Of a stretch of 23,781 bases of DNA, positions 1,290 through 14,280 are shown piece by piece (within the stretch, counting starts at the first letter, position 1; the number at the start of each line of letters is the position of its first letter). The stretch comes from a virus. A model generated the notes under the pieces. It saw only the letters and a list, made by a program, of their open reading frames with translations. It ran no database searches and was not told the DNA's origin. A program made the translations under genes and the position numbers. The stretch covers positions 1-23,781 of the IMG/VR virus record IMGVR_UViG_3300025086_004228; one strand, 5' to 3'.

Positions 1290-1553
1290 ATGAATAAGGA
1301 TTGGTCAAGCCAAATTATGAAAAAAAATAAAAAAAAGTACATTCATGTTAATCAACATAAAATCCGTGCAAATAAAAAACATGGTACAAATGAACCTGTA
1401 ATAACTATAAAAGAAGGTAGTTCAAATACATATTGTCATGAAGTTAAGATATTAGGTGAAAGTACAGTTAGATATGGTGGTAATGAAAAACCTATATTAC
1501 CTTGTGGTGCAAGAGTAGTTATTGAAACTACAGCAGACATTGAAATAGCTTGA
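1290..1553 (+). CDS. Conserved small T4-like marine phage protein
   Basis: An 87-aa basic protein of unknown function. It has a lysine-rich N-terminus, then YIHVNQHKIRANKK, a central TYCHEV segment and a C-terminal CGARVVIETTADIEI strand pair. From memory, closely similar small proteins are common in marine T4-like phages, including cyanophages; no activity is known to me. The ATG at 1290 is used here, but the in-frame ATG at 1317 would give the more conserved-looking start (MKKNKKKYIH). Neither has a good ribosome binding site. The 54-base gap before the gene is AT-rich and contains a TATAAT at 1244-1249 without a convincing -35 element. Its stop codon lies within the promoter of the next gene. 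Confidence 0.75.
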   Translation: MNKDWSSQIMKKNKKKYIHVNQHKIRANKKHGTNEPVITIKEGSSNTYCHEVKILGESTVRYGGNEKPILPCGARVVIETTADIEIA

Positions 1554-1577
1554 CCTATCAAGGTTTCATAGTATAAT
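1550..1577 (+). promoter_or_regulatory. Sigma70-like promoter for gp55, predicted leaderless
   Basis: TTGACC at 1550-1555 and TATAAT at 1572-1577 are separated by 16 bases. Counting seven bases past the -10 box puts the likely transcription start at about 1584, the A of the gp55 ATG, so the mRNA would have almost no leader. The -35 box overlaps the TGA stop of the preceding gene. The block AGTATAATAGATACATGA is identical at 14263-14280, before the DUF3310 gene, which supports a shared promoter class. No mapped transcript start is available. Confidence 0.6.
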
Positions 1578-7248: not shown

Positions 7249-7250
7249 GC

Positions 7251-7280
7251 TTGACACCGCCGGTACCCTTTTAGTATACT
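7251..7280 (+). promoter_or_regulatory. Repeated promoter/operator module, copy 1
   Basis: TTGACA at 7251-7256 and TATACT at 7275-7280 are separated by 18 bases. Inside the spacer lies the palindrome ACCGCCGGT (7256-7264), continuing into GGTACC. The predicted start is near 7287, leaving a short leader with AAGAGG at 7296-7301 as ribosome binding site for the 65-aa gene at 7310. Two near-identical modules occur at 7504 and 10421. The conserved palindrome between -35 and -10 looks like a repressor operator. Confidence 0.7.
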
Positions 7281-7309
7281 ATAACATAATAAAGAAAGAG
7301 GTAAAAAAT

Positions 7310-7507
7310 ATGTCACATTTCGTAAACGACCAAATAGCAGATGAAGCAATGATGAAAGTTGATTCTATGACTGACCCTGCTGTTATCAGACAATGTATAA
7401 TGAGAGGTCTAACATTAGACCTGTTTATTGATATTAATGAAGCAAGAGATTTACTATTAGATTGTATCTTTGATGAATTAATGTCAGTACCTGGACCATG
7501 TGGTTGA
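7310..7507 (+). CDS. Small conserved hypothetical protein
   Basis: A 65-aa acidic protein of unknown function, driven by its own promoter module and a good ribosome binding site (AAGAGG, eight bases before the ATG). It appears mostly helical. Features are MSHFVNDQIADEAMMKVDSM, a repeated pattern of Asp/Leu (LTLDLFIDINEARDLLLDCIFDEL) and a tail ending in PGPCG, with three cysteines. Its TGA stop lies inside the -35 box of the second promoter module, so the gene and the two modules form one tight unit. A regulator of the repeated operator is possible from position alone, but no DNA-binding motif is visible. Confidence 0.7.
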   Translation: MSHFVNDQIADEAMMKVDSMTDPAVIRQCIMRGLTLDLFIDINEARDLLLDCIFDELMSVPGPCG

Positions 7508-7533
7508 TACCGCTGGTACACTTTTGATATACT
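7504..7533 (+). promoter_or_regulatory. Repeated promoter/operator module, copy 2
   Basis: TTGATA at 7504-7509 and TATACT at 7528-7533 have an 18-base spacer containing the perfect palindrome TACC-GCT-GGTA at 7508-7518. The predicted transcription start is at about 7540, the A of the VWA-protein ATG. The leader equivalent of copy 1 (GAAGAAAGAGGTAAA, 7544-7558) is here read as codons of that gene. The module overlaps the stop of the 65-aa gene. Confidence 0.7.
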
Positions 7534-7539
7534 ATAAAC

Positions 7540-9861
7540 ATGATGAAGAAAGAGGTAAATACAATCAATTCAAATAAAGATATTCTTGCTAAACTAATGG
7601 CAACAGAGAATATTACAGTTATTCATAAAAAAGTTCCAACAGCTTATTTTGATGTTAAAAGTAGAACACTTTGTTGTCCTATTTTAAAAGAAGAAATGAG
7701 TTCTGAACTTACTGATTTATTTATGGGTCATGAAGTAGGACACGCTTTGAATACACCAGCAGAAGGTTGGCATGACGCAGTATGTGAAAAAGGTATGATG
7801 TTTAAAGGATATTTAAATGTCATTGAAGATGTTAGAATAGAAAAGAAAATAAAATCAAAATATCCAGGACTAAGAAAATCTTTTTACAGTGGTTATAAAG
7901 ATTTAGCTAATCAAGACTTTTTTGGAATCAGAGGTAAAAATATTCATGAAATGATATTGATTGATAGAATCAATCTTTACTTTAAGATAGGTTCAATAAC
8001 TCAAATAGAATTTAGTAAAGAAGAACAACCATACATTGATAGATGTAATAAATTAGAAACTTTTAAAGAAGTTATGGAGTTAGCAACTGAATTATTTGAA
8101 AGACAAAAAGAACTTACAGAAAATGAAGTAGAATCTATGACAGATATAGAAATTGAAGATATGTTAGAAGACTTAGGACTTAATGATTCAGAAGAAGAAG
8201 AATCAGAGTCAATGACTGTAGAAGTTTCAGAAAGTGAAGATTCAGATAATACTCAAGAAGGGTCTAATGCAAAGTCAGAAGATGAAGGTCAAGATTCAGA
8301 TGAAAGTTCAAGCTCCACGGATGGGTCAGAGAACTCAAGCCAAGAAGATGTCGAATCATCTGAATCATCTACAAAATCACCAAAAGGATTATTAACAGAT
8401 GAAAAAATGAAATCTATTTCAGATGAAGCTTTCAGAGAAAAAGAAGAAACATTATATGATAATGATGAATATTCAGCAGAACCTCAGTATTTAGAAATAC
8501 CAGGTAAAGTTAAATATGATAATTTCATTGTTGATTATAAAGAAATTGATTCTAAATTTAGAAAATTAGATAGACAATATGTTAAAAATTATGTAAAAGA
8601 ATTTGTTAACTCAAACAAAAAAATTATTAACTACATGGTTAAAGAATTTGAAATGAAGAAAGCAGCTGCTGATTACAAAAGAAGTTGGTCTTCAAAATCT
8701 GGTGAACTTGATATGTCAAAAATACATCAATACTTATTAAAAGATGATATATTTAACAGAGTTCAAATAACTCCTGATGGAAAAAATCATGGTGTAGTTA
8801 TGTTGTTAGATTGGTCAGGTTCAATGTCTGGTTCAGTTGAAGCGACAATGGAACAAGCAACTTTACTTTCAATGTTTTGTAGAAGACTTTCAATACCTTT
8901 TAGATTGTTTGCTTTTTCTGATGGTTATTTTGATAGAGCTGATACATATAGAAGCGAACTACTTGATGAAATTTATAGAGCAGACTATGGTTCTAAAAAA
9001 AGAGAAAAATTAGAACAACAATTAAGAGATTATGAAAGTAGTAAAGTATTTGGAACTGTAGTTGAAAAAGAAAATGCTTATCCTGATTTAGGTAGGTTTA
9101 ATCTTTTAGAAATATTTAATGAATCAATGTCAAATAATGAATTTAATAAAGCAATGGAAAATTGGTTTCAAATATCACAAGCAATTGAAAATCCTTACAG
9201 GTATGGTTATGAAAATGATACTAATTCAACTTTTGATGGTGAGTTTGGTGTTCCTAGTGGATTACAATTAGGTGGAACTCCTCTTGACCATTCATTGTTT
9301 ATAATCAGAGATTACTTAAAAGATTTTAAAGCAGACTATAATATTGATATTTGTAGTTTGATTACACTAACTGACGGTGCAAGTCATAGATTTACTGGAA
9401 GAAATACTAGACTAGTTGATAGAAAAATTAACAGAGTTTTTGATGTTAGTCAAAAAAATTATTACAATTCAACAACTCATGGTATTTTGGAATGGGTAAA
9501 AGAAACAACAGGTGTTAGAACAATAGGATTTTACATAACAAATTGTAAAGCATCTGATATAACATGGGAAGGTAAAAACTTTTGTGGTTCAAATATCGGT
9601 TCTTATGGTGATGAATATGAAAATAAAAGAAAAGAATTTATGAAATTATCAACATCATTTTCAGATGGTTGTTATGACTTAGCAATTCTAATCAATCAAA
9701 AGAAATTAAAATTAAATTATGATGAAGATGAACTTAATGTACATTCAATGGATGAAGGTGCTAACAAAGGAACTCTAAAAAGAGCTCTTGTAAAAGCAGG
9801 TAGTAATAAAATGAAACAAAGAGTTATCTTAAATCAATTCGTAGGACAAATGGCAGTATAA
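7540..9861 (+). CDS. HEXXH metallopeptidase-VWA protein (CobT-like)
   Basis: A 773-aa two-domain protein. The N-terminal part carries a zinc-peptidase motif HEVGHAL at 64-70, with a likely third ligand in NVIEDVRIE near 93-101. A Ser/Asp/Glu-rich low-complexity linker follows at about 205-280. The C-terminal half is a von Willebrand A domain with MIDAS motif LLDWSGSM (Asp424 in DxSGS) and a later TLTDGAS (Asp612). VWA proteins of this sort pair with MoxR/CobS-type AAA+ ATPases, and one is encoded at 10498. Phage homologues are often labelled CobT or peptidase; a cobalt-chelatase role is doubtful. The ATGATG at 7540 sits at the predicted transcription start, so it may be a leaderless message. 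Confidence 0.85.
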   Translation: MMKKEVNTINSNKDILAKLMATENITVIHKKVPTAYFDVKSRTLCCPILKEEMSSELTDLFMGHEVGHALNTPAEGWHDAVCEKGMMFKGYLNVIEDVRIEKKIKSKYPGLRKSFYSGYKDLANQDFFGIRGKNIHEMILIDRINLYFKIGSITQIEFSKEEQPYIDRCNKLETFKEVMELATELFERQKELTENEVESMTDIEIEDMLEDLGLNDSEEEESESMTVEVSESEDSDNTQEGSNAKSEDEGQDSDESSSSTDGSENSSQEDVESSESSTKSPKGLLTDEKMKSISDEAFREKEETLYDNDEYSAEPQYLEIPGKVKYDNFIVDYKEIDSKFRKLDRQYVKNYVKEFVNSNKKIINYMVKEFEMKKAAADYKRSWSSKSGELDMSKIHQYLLKDDIFNRVQITPDGKNHGVVMLLDWSGSMSGSVEATMEQATLLSMFCRRLSIPFRLFAFSDGYFDRADTYRSELLDEIYRADYGSKKREKLEQQLRDYESSKVFGTVVEKENAYPDLGRFNLLEIFNESMSNNEFNKAMENWFQISQAIENPYRYGYENDTNSTFDGEFGVPSGLQLGGTPLDHSLFIIRDYLKDFKADYNIDICSLITLTDGASHRFTGRNTRLVDRKINRVFDVSQKNYYNSTTHGILEWVKETTGVRTIGFYITNCKASDITWEGKNFCGSNIGSYGDEYENKRKEFMKLSTSFSDGCYDLAILINQKKLKLNYDEDELNVHSMDEGANKGTLKRALVKAGSNKMKQRVILNQFVGQMAV

Positions 9862-9862
9862 T

Positions 9863-10417
9863 ATGAAGAAACACGGACCAACAAAAGCAAACATGACCGG
9901 GAGAGCAACAGGACAAGATGTTGTTATGACTCCACCAGAAACGGCACATTGGATAGTTAATTATTTTGAACCATCAGGAAAACTATTAGAACCTTGTAGA
10001 GGTGAAGGAGCTTTCTATAATGCTTTAGTAGATTATAACCATGAGTGCAAAGGATTATCAGTTGAAGCTGATGATGTAGATTGGTGTGAAATATCAGAAG
10101 GTAAAGATTTTATGAATTATGATAAACAAGTAGATTGGATTATAACAAACCCACCATACAGTATATTTGATATATTTTTAAAGAAGGCAATGTCTATATC
10201 TGATAATATAGTATTTTTTGTTCCACTACAAAAATTATTTAAATCAAAAACAAATGATATTGATGTTTACCAATATGGTGGTGTAAAAGAAATAATAAAC
10301 ATGGGAACAGGAACTAGACATGGTTTCGCTATGGGGTTTCTTGTAGGTGCTATTCATTATCAAAAGGACTATCAAGGAGATATTAAATATACCAGAAGTC
10401 CGGGAGCGATGAAATAA
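9863..10417 (+). CDS. Small adenine-N6 DNA methyltransferase-like protein
   Basis: A 184-aa Rossmann-type protein with two methyltransferase motifs: LEPCRGEGAF at 42-51 (the DPxxGxG-like SAM-binding motif I) and TNPPYS at 95-100 (the catalytic NPPY motif IV of N6-adenine methyltransferases). It is far shorter than restriction-system methyltransferases and shows no target-recognition domain, so it could be a minimal orphan enzyme or a non-DNA methyltransferase. It starts one base after the VWA-protein stop and must share its transcript. It ends just before the third promoter module. The class assignment is good; substrate and activity are not established. Confidence 0.75.
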   Translation: MKKHGPTKANMTGRATGQDVVMTPPETAHWIVNYFEPSGKLLEPCRGEGAFYNALVDYNHECKGLSVEADDVDWCEISEGKDFMNYDKQVDWIITNPPYSIFDIFLKKAMSISDNIVFFVPLQKLFKSKTNDIDVYQYGGVKEIINMGTGTRHGFAMGFLVGAIHYQKDYQGDIKYTRSPGAMK

Positions 10418-10420
10418 AAC

Positions 10421-10450
10421 TTGATACCGCTGGTACACTTTTGTTATACT
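10421..10450 (+). promoter_or_regulatory. Repeated promoter/operator module, copy 3
   Basis: TTGATA at 10421-10426 and TATACT at 10445-10450 have an 18-base spacer holding the palindrome TACC-GCT-GGTA at 10425-10435, identical in the palindrome to copy 2. The predicted start is near 10457. GAGG at 10484-10487 serves the AAA+ gene at 10498. A 12-codon mini-ORF lies in the leader. Confidence 0.7.
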
Positions 10451-10459
10451 ATGTACATA

Positions 10460-10498
10460 ATGAAAAATAATCAATTAAATAGCGAGGTAAATATATAA
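10460..10498 (+). other. Possible 12-codon leader ORF coupled to the AAA+ gene
   Basis: An ATG at 10460 opens a 12-codon frame (MKNNQLNSEVNI) whose TAA at 10496-10498 overlaps the ATG of the AAA+ gene at 10498. It begins about three bases after the predicted transcription start. Its SEV-N codons are made of the same GAGGTAAAT sequence that acts as ribosome binding site. It could be a translated coupling peptide or chance in AT-rich DNA. Confidence 0.25.
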
Positions 10499-11664
10499 TG
10501 ATTAAATTGACAGCTCAACATGAGAAATTTATTGACGCAGCTGCTGGGTTATATCCAGGACAAGCTGAGTTTTCAAAATCACAAATTAAAAAGATTTGTG
10601 TAGAAACAGGATGTCCAAATCCTTCTTGGTTGCAAAAACCAGCGTATAGGGTAGGACATGGAACTTACTCTTTAGAACTAGCAGGTGTTGCAGTTCAAAA
10701 TAATGTAGTTAATCTACCTGTTGCTTCTACTACAGTCGGAGCTCCTAACATTGTTAGTGATGTTTCAGTAGTTCCAGAAGTTGTAAAGGAATATGTTCCT
10801 TTCGGACACTTCAAAGATTTAAAATCAATTATCAATTCAGGATTATTCTTTCCTGTTTTTATTACAGGATTATCAGGTAATGGTAAAACTATGATGGTTG
10901 AACAAATATGTGCTAAACTCAAAAGAGAATGCTACAGAGTTAATGTTACGGTTGAAACTGATGAAGATGATTTGATTGGTTCAAATACTTTAGTTGACGG
11001 AAACATAGTTTTCAGAGAAGGTCCTGTTCTCAAAGCAATGAGAAAAGGTGCTGTTCTTTTGATTGATGAAATTGATTTAGCATCTAACAAAATTATGTGT
11101 CTTCAATCAATACTTGAAGGTAAAGGTTATCTTAACAAAAAGACAGGTGAGTATGTTTCACCTGAGAATGGTTTTACAGTTATCGCAACAGCGAACACTA
11201 AAGGTAAAGGTTCAGATGATGGAAGATTCATCGGAACTAATGTTTTGAATGAAGCTTTCCTTGAAAGATTCTCAATCACAATGGAACAAGAATATCCTTC
11301 TAATGCAATTGAGAAAAAAATTCTCAATAAAGAGTTTGATAAACTTGAAGTCAAAGGTGCTTCTAGTTTTACAACTAACTTAATAACTTGGGCTGATGTA
11401 ATCAGAAAAAGTTTTTACGAAGGTGCAATTGATGAACTTATTTCAACAAGAAGACTAGTTCACATAGCACAAGCTTTCAAGATGTTTGATAATAAAATGA
11501 AAGCAATTGAAATGTGTGTTTCAAGATTCGATTCAGAAACTAAATCAACTTTCTTAGACCTCTACACAAAAGTAGATGCGGAAGCCGTTGAACTTGATGA
11601 TGAAGTTGCTGTTGTAGAAGATGATGAATATAAAACACCAGACAATGATGAAAATATATTTTAA
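10498..11664 (+). CDS. cobS: MoxR/CobS-like AAA+ ATPase
   Basis: A 388-aa AAA+ ATPase. After an N-terminal region of about 100 residues (a possible nucleic-acid or adaptor domain, then a Val/Ala/Pro-rich linker) the ATPase core shows Walker A GLSGNGKT at 124-131, Walker B LLIDEID at 187-193, a sensor-1 ATANT near 230-234 and an ERF arginine stretch near 258-260. The C-terminal tail is strongly acidic. Marine T4-like phages carry such genes annotated cobS, by likeness to the cobaltochelatase subunit. Here its natural partner is the VWA protein at 7540, which favours a MoxR/VWA-type protein-remodelling machine over cobalamin synthesis. It ends at a strong terminator. Confidence 0.88.
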   Translation: MIKLTAQHEKFIDAAAGLYPGQAEFSKSQIKKICVETGCPNPSWLQKPAYRVGHGTYSLELAGVAVQNNVVNLPVASTTVGAPNIVSDVSVVPEVVKEYVPFGHFKDLKSIINSGLFFPVFITGLSGNGKTMMVEQICAKLKRECYRVNVTVETDEDDLIGSNTLVDGNIVFREGPVLKAMRKGAVLLIDEIDLASNKIMCLQSILEGKGYLNKKTGEYVSPENGFTVIATANTKGKGSDDGRFIGTNVLNEAFLERFSITMEQEYPSNAIEKKILNKEFDKLEVKGASSFTTNLITWADVIRKSFYEGAIDELISTRRLVHIAQAFKMFDNKMKAIEMCVSRFDSETKSTFLDLYTKVDAEAVELDDEVAVVEDDEYKTPDNDENIF

Positions 11665-11678
11665 GAGTTTTACCTCGG

Positions 11679-11707
11679 TCTCGGCCTCGAAAGAGGTCGG
11701 GATTTTT
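11679..11707 (+). terminator. Intrinsic terminator with GAAA tetraloop
   Basis: TCTCGGCCTC (11679-11688) pairs with GAGGTCGGGA (11693-11702) over ten positions, two of them G-U, closing a GAAA tetraloop at 11689-11692, and TTTTT follows at 11703-11707. It is the most GC-rich short stretch in this part of the window. It lies 15 bases after the AAA+ stop, closing the operator-controlled unit. Confidence 0.85.
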
Positions 11708-12330: not shown

Positions 12331-12348
12331 GGGCCTAGAGCTCGGGTA

Positions 12349-12420
12349 GGGACAGATGTTTAACCGTATACAAAAAGAACACATTTTTCAGCTTTGTCTG
12401 TATCGAATTAACATCATCCC
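12349..12420 (+). ncRNA. Possible structured RNA or long imperfect hairpin
   Basis: The 126-base gap before the gene at 12457 contains an interrupted inverted repeat: GGGA (12349-12352) with TCCC (12417-12420), GATGTT (12355-12360) with AACATC (12410-12415), AA with TT next to it, and ATAC (12368-12371) with GTAT (12400-12403). Loop sequences are AT-rich and lack a terminal T run, so a terminator is unlikely. A 32-codon ORF at 12356-12454 crosses it but has coding content unlike its neighbours and no ribosome binding site. It could be a small phage RNA or the remnant of a deleted RNA gene next to the tRNA. Confidence 0.35.
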
Positions 12421-12456
12421 GCCAAATTTTATTAACAATGGAAGTAGTATATAAAA

Positions 12457-14120: not shown

Positions 14121-14280
14121 ATGGCATGGTGGTAAAGGTTCTAAAAGAAGACCAGAAGATTCTGAAAAGTATGAAGAAGCATGGGAAAAAATATTCGGTA
14201 AACCTAGAACAAAAGAAAAAACAAAACATGACAAAAAGAAACTTGACAGGACAGAAAACAGTAGTATAATAGATACATGA
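14113..14280 (+). CDS. Small basic conserved phage protein
   Basis: A 55-aa, very basic protein beginning MTKWHGGKGSKRRPED, followed by EKYEEAWEKIFGK and a lysine-rich tail. The MTKWxGGKGSK opening and IFGK ending are, from memory, recurrent in T4-like marine phages next to gp45 or similar genes; function is unknown. It overlaps genes on both sides. Its last 38 bases contain a complete promoter (14243-14270), so the same DNA codes for protein and drives the next gene. Confidence 0.7.
   Translation: MTKWHGGKGSKRRPEDSEKYEEAWEKIFGKPRTKEKTKHDKKKLDRTENSSIIDT
14243..14270 (+). promoter_or_regulatory. Sigma70-like promoter inside a coding region, predicted leaderless
   Basis: TTGACA at 14243-14248 and TATAAT at 14265-14270 have a 16-base spacer. 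The predicted start is 14277, the A of the DUF3310 ATG. The 18 bases from 14263 to 14280 are identical to those before gp55. It lies wholly within the preceding 55-aa gene. Confidence 0.65.

Follow-up and report, generated by a model that had tools for sequence, protein, structure and literature searches.

What does the short, palindrome-like word that recurs between the −35 and −10 hexamers of three promoters in one phage locus do, and which genes does it serve? The locus lies in the window, i.e., the whole 23.8-kb virus record analyzed here, which derives from a T4-like marine phage and encodes gp55, gp46/47, gp45/44, queuosine genes, a peptide deformylase, a CobT/VWA-like "peptidase," and a CobS-like AAA+ ATPase. 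Comparisons of its DNA and of its CobS protein place Pelagibacter phage HTVC008M and cyanomyoviruses closest among isolates, the CobS identities reaching at most about 57%. A near-complete relative of 129.5 kb from a sister clade (G007) carries CsgF/CsgG-like curli genes, as read by eye, and curli genes of this type have been described for SAR11 pelagimyophages (PMC7029224). On this evidence, the phage probably infects SAR11 bacteria.

Three matching promoter modules in the window

All three modules described in an earlier note on this DNA were recovered on the plus strand, each matching the 32-mer TTGANACCGCNGGTACNCTTTTNNTATACTAT with 0 mismatches and each endowed with the 18-base spacer, the TATACT hexamer, and the downstream GAGGTAA (at about 7299, 7552, and 10484) attributed to it (Table 1). 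The window holds no further copy, and at ≤3 mismatches it yielded these 3 matches vs 0 in 100 dinucleotide-preserving shuffles. Every module sets in immediately past, or overlapping, the stop codon of the preceding gene, and the unit runs in the order P1, 65-aa ORF, P2, VWA gene, methyltransferase-like ORF, P3, CobS gene, and a strong terminator-like hairpin. The 65-aa ORF has no match in Pfam or PHROG; look-alikes lie below boxes in L055 and G007. Between P3 and CobS, the stop codon of a mini-ORF overlaps the CobS start (TAATG), an arrangement that suggests a leader peptide with coupled translation. Beyond the unit, a GC-rich intergenic stretch upstream of ORF 12457 had no match in an Rfam search.

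Table 1. Positions of promoters, genes, and RNAs discussed in the text
Feature	Record	Position (strand)	Details
Class-2 promoter (box-less)	window	1550..1577 (+)	TTGACC-16-TATAAT; 5′ of late sigma factor gp55 (ORF 1584-2114)
Class-1 promoter P1	window	7251..7282 (+)	−35 TTGACA 7251-7256; box CCGCCGGTAC 7257-7266; −10 TATACT 7275-7280; predicted start 7287
65-aa ORF under P1	window	7310..7507 (+)	MSHFVND.IAD small-protein type
Class-1 promoter P2	window	7504..7535 (+)	−35 TTGATA 7504-7509; box CCGCTGGTAC 7510-7519; TG extended −10 TATACT 7528-7533; predicted start 7540 = VWA ATG (leaderless)
VWA/CobT-like protein	window	7540..9861 (+)	phage annotation "peptidase"; phrog_459, E 5e-175
DNA methyltransferase-like ORF	window	9863..10417 (+)	phrog_799, E 2e-30
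Class-1 promoter P3	window	10421..10452 (+)	−35 TTGATA 10421-10426; box CCGCTGGTAC 10427-10436; TG extended −10 TATACT 10445-10450; predicted start 10457
Mini-ORF between P3 and CobS	window	10460-10500	ATG AAA AAT AAT CAA TTA AAT AGC GAG GTA AAT ATA TAA
CobS-like AAA+ ATPase	window	10498..11664 (+)	PF07728, E 4e-20; phrog_249, E 6e-117
Intrinsic-terminator-like hairpin	window	11677..11704 (+)	12 pairs, then TTTTTA; end of class-1 unit
GC-rich intergenic stretch	window	12331-12456	GGGGCCTAGAGCTCGGGTAGGGACAG...
Class-2 promoter (box-less)	window	14243..14270 (+)	TTGACA-16-TATAAT; 5′ of ORF 14277, gp45, gp44
RNA-1	L102	1638-1806
RNA-1	L073	2791-2957
RNA-1	L053	3804-3967
RNA-1	L087, L112, L031, L094, L026, L084, L103, L092
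RNA-2	L054	556-846
RNA-2	L046	833-1122
RNA-2	L111
RNA-2 (sister clade)	L248	6728-6937
RNA-2 (sister clade)	L251	3587-3798
RNA-2 (sister clade)	L262, L169, L247, L250, L253
88-aa RHH-looking ORF	G001 (L302)	34477-34740
Promoters of another type	HTVC008M	87354, 89838, 93012, 135022, 30052(−)	TTGAC-N18-TAGGATRTA

A promoter class restricted to uncultured marine phages

A scan of IMG/VR with the pattern TTGANACCGCNGGTN{9,11}TATANT returned at least 164 site rows from at least 119 stretches, counting duplicate records as well as the copies in the window itself. In 3.2 Mb of viral DNA, the 32-mer has 168 distinct sites at ≤4 mismatches, separated from noise by a sharp gap, and its reversed pattern has none at ≤6 mismatches. 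Among the matches listed, essentially all true sites keep a spacer of 18 bp. An ORF starts within 300 nt of 152/159 sites, and several of the others precede a non-coding RNA; the palindrome is thus not spread widely away from promoters, and a spread of that kind is what the earlier note had named as fatal to its reading. Its notion of a dedicated regulon was supported, and this is a real promoter class. However, contrary to the same note, the regulon is not confined to the VWA/AAA+ unit: in relatives, the motif also lies 5′ of tRNAs, a 5′-deoxynucleotidase, many small ORFs, and two structured RNAs.

No copy occurs at ≤3 mismatches in the genomes of HTVC008M, Mosig EXVC030M, or AG-345-D19. Only five scattered matches were retrieved from 84,980 bacterial and archaeal genomes (Chthonomonadia, Clostridiales, Saprospiraceae, Negativicutes, and Pedobacter), with none in Pelagibacterales or cyanobacteria; these look like chance, and a host promoter motif was rejected on this ground. 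BLAST matches to Staphylococcus phages were also discarded, as they begin at query position 14-17 and so cover chiefly sequence 3′ of the box. The box promoter is restricted to an uncultured lineage of T4-like, pelagimyophage-type marine phages.

These promoters, hereafter class 1, consist of a TTG... −35, a spacer of exactly 18 bp, and, in most members, an extended −10 (TGnTATAAT/TATACT). A conserved asymmetric box, CCGCNGGTAC, occupies about −30 to −21 and holds 19 of about 45 bits of information, with 7.7 in the −35 and 8.5 in the −10. Positions 4, 10, and 23 are neutral and vary freely; the box, by contrast, does not. Sigma70-type promoters have −35 and −10 hexamers 16 to 18 bp apart and a start about 7 nt downstream. 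Class 1 conforms to this pattern with its 18-bp spacer, TATAAT/TATACT, and an ATG in register at base 7 or 10, and we lean toward regarding the three sites of the window as members of a lineage-specific class of such promoters.

The box is asymmetric

The palindrome is indeed perfect in two copies, as previously noted: the second and third modules carry TACCGCTGGTA, with 4-bp arms around GCT, and the first carries CACCGCCGGTA. A dimeric repressor of phage or host origin bound to TACCGCTGGTA in the spacer would block RNA polymerase and shut the unit off. The location of the word in the spacer, the ACC/GGT symmetry of most class-1A sites, the strict spacing, and the strong core promoter elements would all suit such an operator, whereas the pattern of conservation does not. 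The arms span just 3 to 4 bp, and the left one shares a base with the −35 hexamer (its last). None of the 29 arm substitutions found in distinct sites is compensated, and only 25% of these sites have perfect TACC/GGTA arms. Furthermore, the AC following GGT is invariant, while its mirror positions are free or taken up by the −35, and conservation of the two arms is not two-fold symmetric, as it should be in a palindromic repressor operator.

The sister clade (CobS 61-65% identical) argues in the same direction. The same genes are preceded there by TTG-N7-GGTACA-N8-TATAAT, which has no ACC arm and places GGTAC one base closer to the −35. As TTG-N7-GGTAC-N9-TATANT, this form has 69 sites vs 7 in the control, and it tolerates −35 forms like TTGCAT. 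Given the uncompensated arms and the left arm missing from the sister clade, the palindrome was rejected as the functional unit. Within the box, GGTAC is the deeply conserved element, with CCGC as an extension in the window's clade. Repression through a palindromic operator is thus unlikely, while a variant with an asymmetric repressor site is possible.

A box-less class serves a different gene set

The same phages use a second class of promoters that lacks the box, TTGACA-N12-GTAG-TATAAT-AGATAYATG, with a spacer of mostly 16 but also 17 and 18 bp; the spacer-16 form has 49 sites vs 1 in the control. Class 2 precedes gp55, gp33, gp45, gp44, gp47, UvsX, primase, and NrdA/B, and class 1 precedes VWA, CobS, 5′-deoxynucleotidase, tRNAs, small ORFs, and the two non-coding RNAs. 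Of the 52 families of downstream genes, just 1 occurs with both classes (mean of 46.7 and minimum of 37 when labels were shuffled), a partition that is to be read as stability rather than as a p-value because orthologues are not independent. The box is the class label, which sets one fixed gene set apart from the box-less class for replication and late transcription. A third, late-type motif, YATAAATA, lies 5′ of other G007 genes, many of them apparently structural. Class 1 is distinct from T4-like late promoters (TATAAATA, no −35) in having TATAAT/TATACT together with a −35.

The two sigma70-type classes also differ in their core elements. About 96-98% of class-1 sites keep the −35 TTG, but TTGAC occurs in just 19/102 class-1 sites vs 58/58 class-2 sites with TTG, a comparison in which the −35 was left out of site selection and the unselected class-2 set still holds chance and class-1B matches. 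The TG of the extended −10 is present in 68% of class 1 vs 31% of class 2. Within class 1, a poor −35 is not offset by the box; both decay together, and compensation of a weak −35 by the box inside this class was discarded.

Predicted starts and leaderless messages

An ATG stands exactly at base 7 past the −10 in 60/82 class-2, 36/58 class-1B, and 42/174 class-1A sites, against 2.3% expected by chance; in 67 more class-1A sites it stands at base 10. A register so far above chance indicates that both the −10 and the start are real. It supports the starts predicted at 7287, 7540, and 10457, which it fits. Where the start codon coincides with the predicted transcription start, as it does for many class-2 and some class-1 promoters, the message should be leaderless. 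In the window, leaderless messages are predicted for gp55 (ATG 1584), ORF 14277, and the VWA gene (ATG 7540).

Two conserved structured RNAs behind box promoters

RNA-1 (about 165 nt, 11 sequences) lies behind a class-1 box promoter and is followed in several contigs by another. In both clades, RNA-2 (about 210-290 nt, 10 sequences) follows a box promoter. Its sister-clade copies lie a few hundred bases 5′ of the VWA gene, and tRNA genes often intervene. Compensatory changes on both sides of a pair occur in 8/22 pairs of RNA-1 and 9/40 pairs of RNA-2, and the helices of the two RNAs keep 99% of cells paired vs 34-51% when slid. Indels in both are incompatible with coding, and an Rfam search of the two gave no match. 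Judged by their alignments, RNA-1 and RNA-2 would be two unreported conserved structured RNAs with covarying helices.

What might read the box

We favor a phage-encoded, RNA-polymerase-associated factor, following the logic of MotA but not a member of its family, over a repressor operator. A phage reader is preferred because no part of the promoter is better conserved than the box, which moreover is phage specific and adjoins a −35 that is relaxed with respect to class 2. In this scheme, the host sigma70 polymerase would recognize TTG and the extended −10, a phage protein would read the box at or beside sigma region 4 together with host RNA polymerase, and this reading would make the polymerase use class-1 promoters in a particular phase. 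The logic would be that of T4 MotA, but box, position, and protein differ. Specifically, we propose, tentatively, that the 10-bp box between the two hexamers may be the target of a phage transcription factor from an undescribed family, which would redirect the host sigma70 polymerase to a single class of genes. Since the −35 departs systematically from consensus, an activator or an altered sigma contact suits the data somewhat better than occlusion, and the repression by occlusion put forward in the earlier note is not directly supported. On the other hand, the class-1 core is already good, with a mostly extended −10 and a fair −35, which counts against a required activator; these promoters might fire alone.

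That the regulator is not obvious, as had been anticipated, still holds: the 56 small proteins of G007 include no class-specific DNA-binding family. The MotA and AsiA profiles (PF09114 and PF09010) matched nothing in 10 records, nor did they match in the controls. An RHH-looking ORF of 88 aa in G001 was considered as the regulator, but it has no Pfam match, and 14 other records contain no homologue. It lies about 1 kb upstream of a class-1 promoter cluster and is a weak lead.

The box could instead need no extra protein, the spacer being optimized for the host's own or a covalently modified RNA polymerase, in the manner of T4 early promoters with their extended consensus. Conservation of the full 32-mer, the frequent extended −10, and an initiator in register are in line with intrinsic recognition. 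However, we know of no sigma70 contact with a GC-rich 10-bp word of 19 bits at −30 to −21, class-2 promoters of the same genomes do without the box, and neither Pelagibacterales nor other host genomes showed the motif. We consider this explanation improbable, even though T4-like early promoters do conserve sequence outside the two hexamers (PMC1524935).

Near-identical modules 5′ of unrelated genes would also be expected from a mobile regulatory cassette of promoter plus stem-loop, copied between genes and conserved through recent duplication rather than function. Such cassettes have been reported for T4-type phages. Here, the 55 nt upstream hold no excess of hairpins (mean of −5.2 vs −6.0 kcal/mol for random stretches), and the stem-loop cassette was rejected on this basis. 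Besides, positions 4, 10, and 23 are free to vary while the box is not, and orthologous genes retain the box promoter across clades as distant as the window's and its sister, so that copying is a very improbable origin.

Comparison with known promoters

Class 1 resembles T4 middle promoters in its sigma70-type, mostly extended −10, in an extra box at about −30 to −20, in a weakened −35, and in the assignment of one promoter class to one gene set. Nevertheless, TGCTTTA replaces the −35 in T4 middle promoters, whereas in class 1 no such Mot box takes its place and CCGCNGGTAC, at about −30 to −21, stands beside a kept TTG with its spacing fixed to both hexamers. The genes are different as well: class 1 serves accessory genes, tRNAs, and RNAs, unlike the replication genes of T4 middle promoters, and here it is class 2 that drives replication and late-factor genes. 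MerR-family operators also place a dyad-like element between −35 and −10. MerR sites are long dyads centered in a 19-20 bp spacer, and class 1 departs from them in its 18-bp spacer, 3-bp arms, off-center position, and asymmetric conservation. With T4 early promoters, class 1 shares an extended consensus beyond the hexamers and a location 5′ of tRNAs and novel ORFs (PMC1524935), but the early promoters have a GTTTAC −35 with A-rich upstream sequence and no GC-rich spacer box. By gene content, class 1 looks like T4 early genes and class 2 like T4 middle genes; judged by promoter quality, the order would be the opposite.

HTVC008M has five TTGAC-N18-TAGGATRTA promoters (0 in the reversed control), among them those of VWA and CobS, with a non-canonical −10. 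Both these and class-1 promoters hold 18 bp between TTGAC/−35 and TAGGAT/−10, but the HTVC008M promoters have no box and a different −10, i.e., the same genes are under another promoter type. The TTGAC..TATAAT-N6-ATG form is absent from both HTVC008M and Mosig. This other promoter type at VWA and CobS in HTVC008M, together with the lack of the box there and in Mosig, assigns the box to the uncultured lineage.

Implications

Marine T4-like phages are not known to encode MotA and AsiA. The separation of early and middle transcription has been described as unclear in cyanomyoviruses (PMC2984593), and no middle or late promoters could be predicted in a survey of pelagimyophages (PMC7029224). In the uncultured relative studied here, sigma70-type promoters fall into two sharply separated classes, accompanied by a late class, and explicit motifs, lists of genes, and predicted starts are now available. 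These class motifs make the early/middle question directly testable and point to a regulator, and the motif can be used to delimit transcription units in marine viral contigs. If true, the proposed reading of the box would amount to a novel way of appropriating sigma, used by the large group of marine T4-like phages that are without MotA, and would supply their missing early/middle switch.
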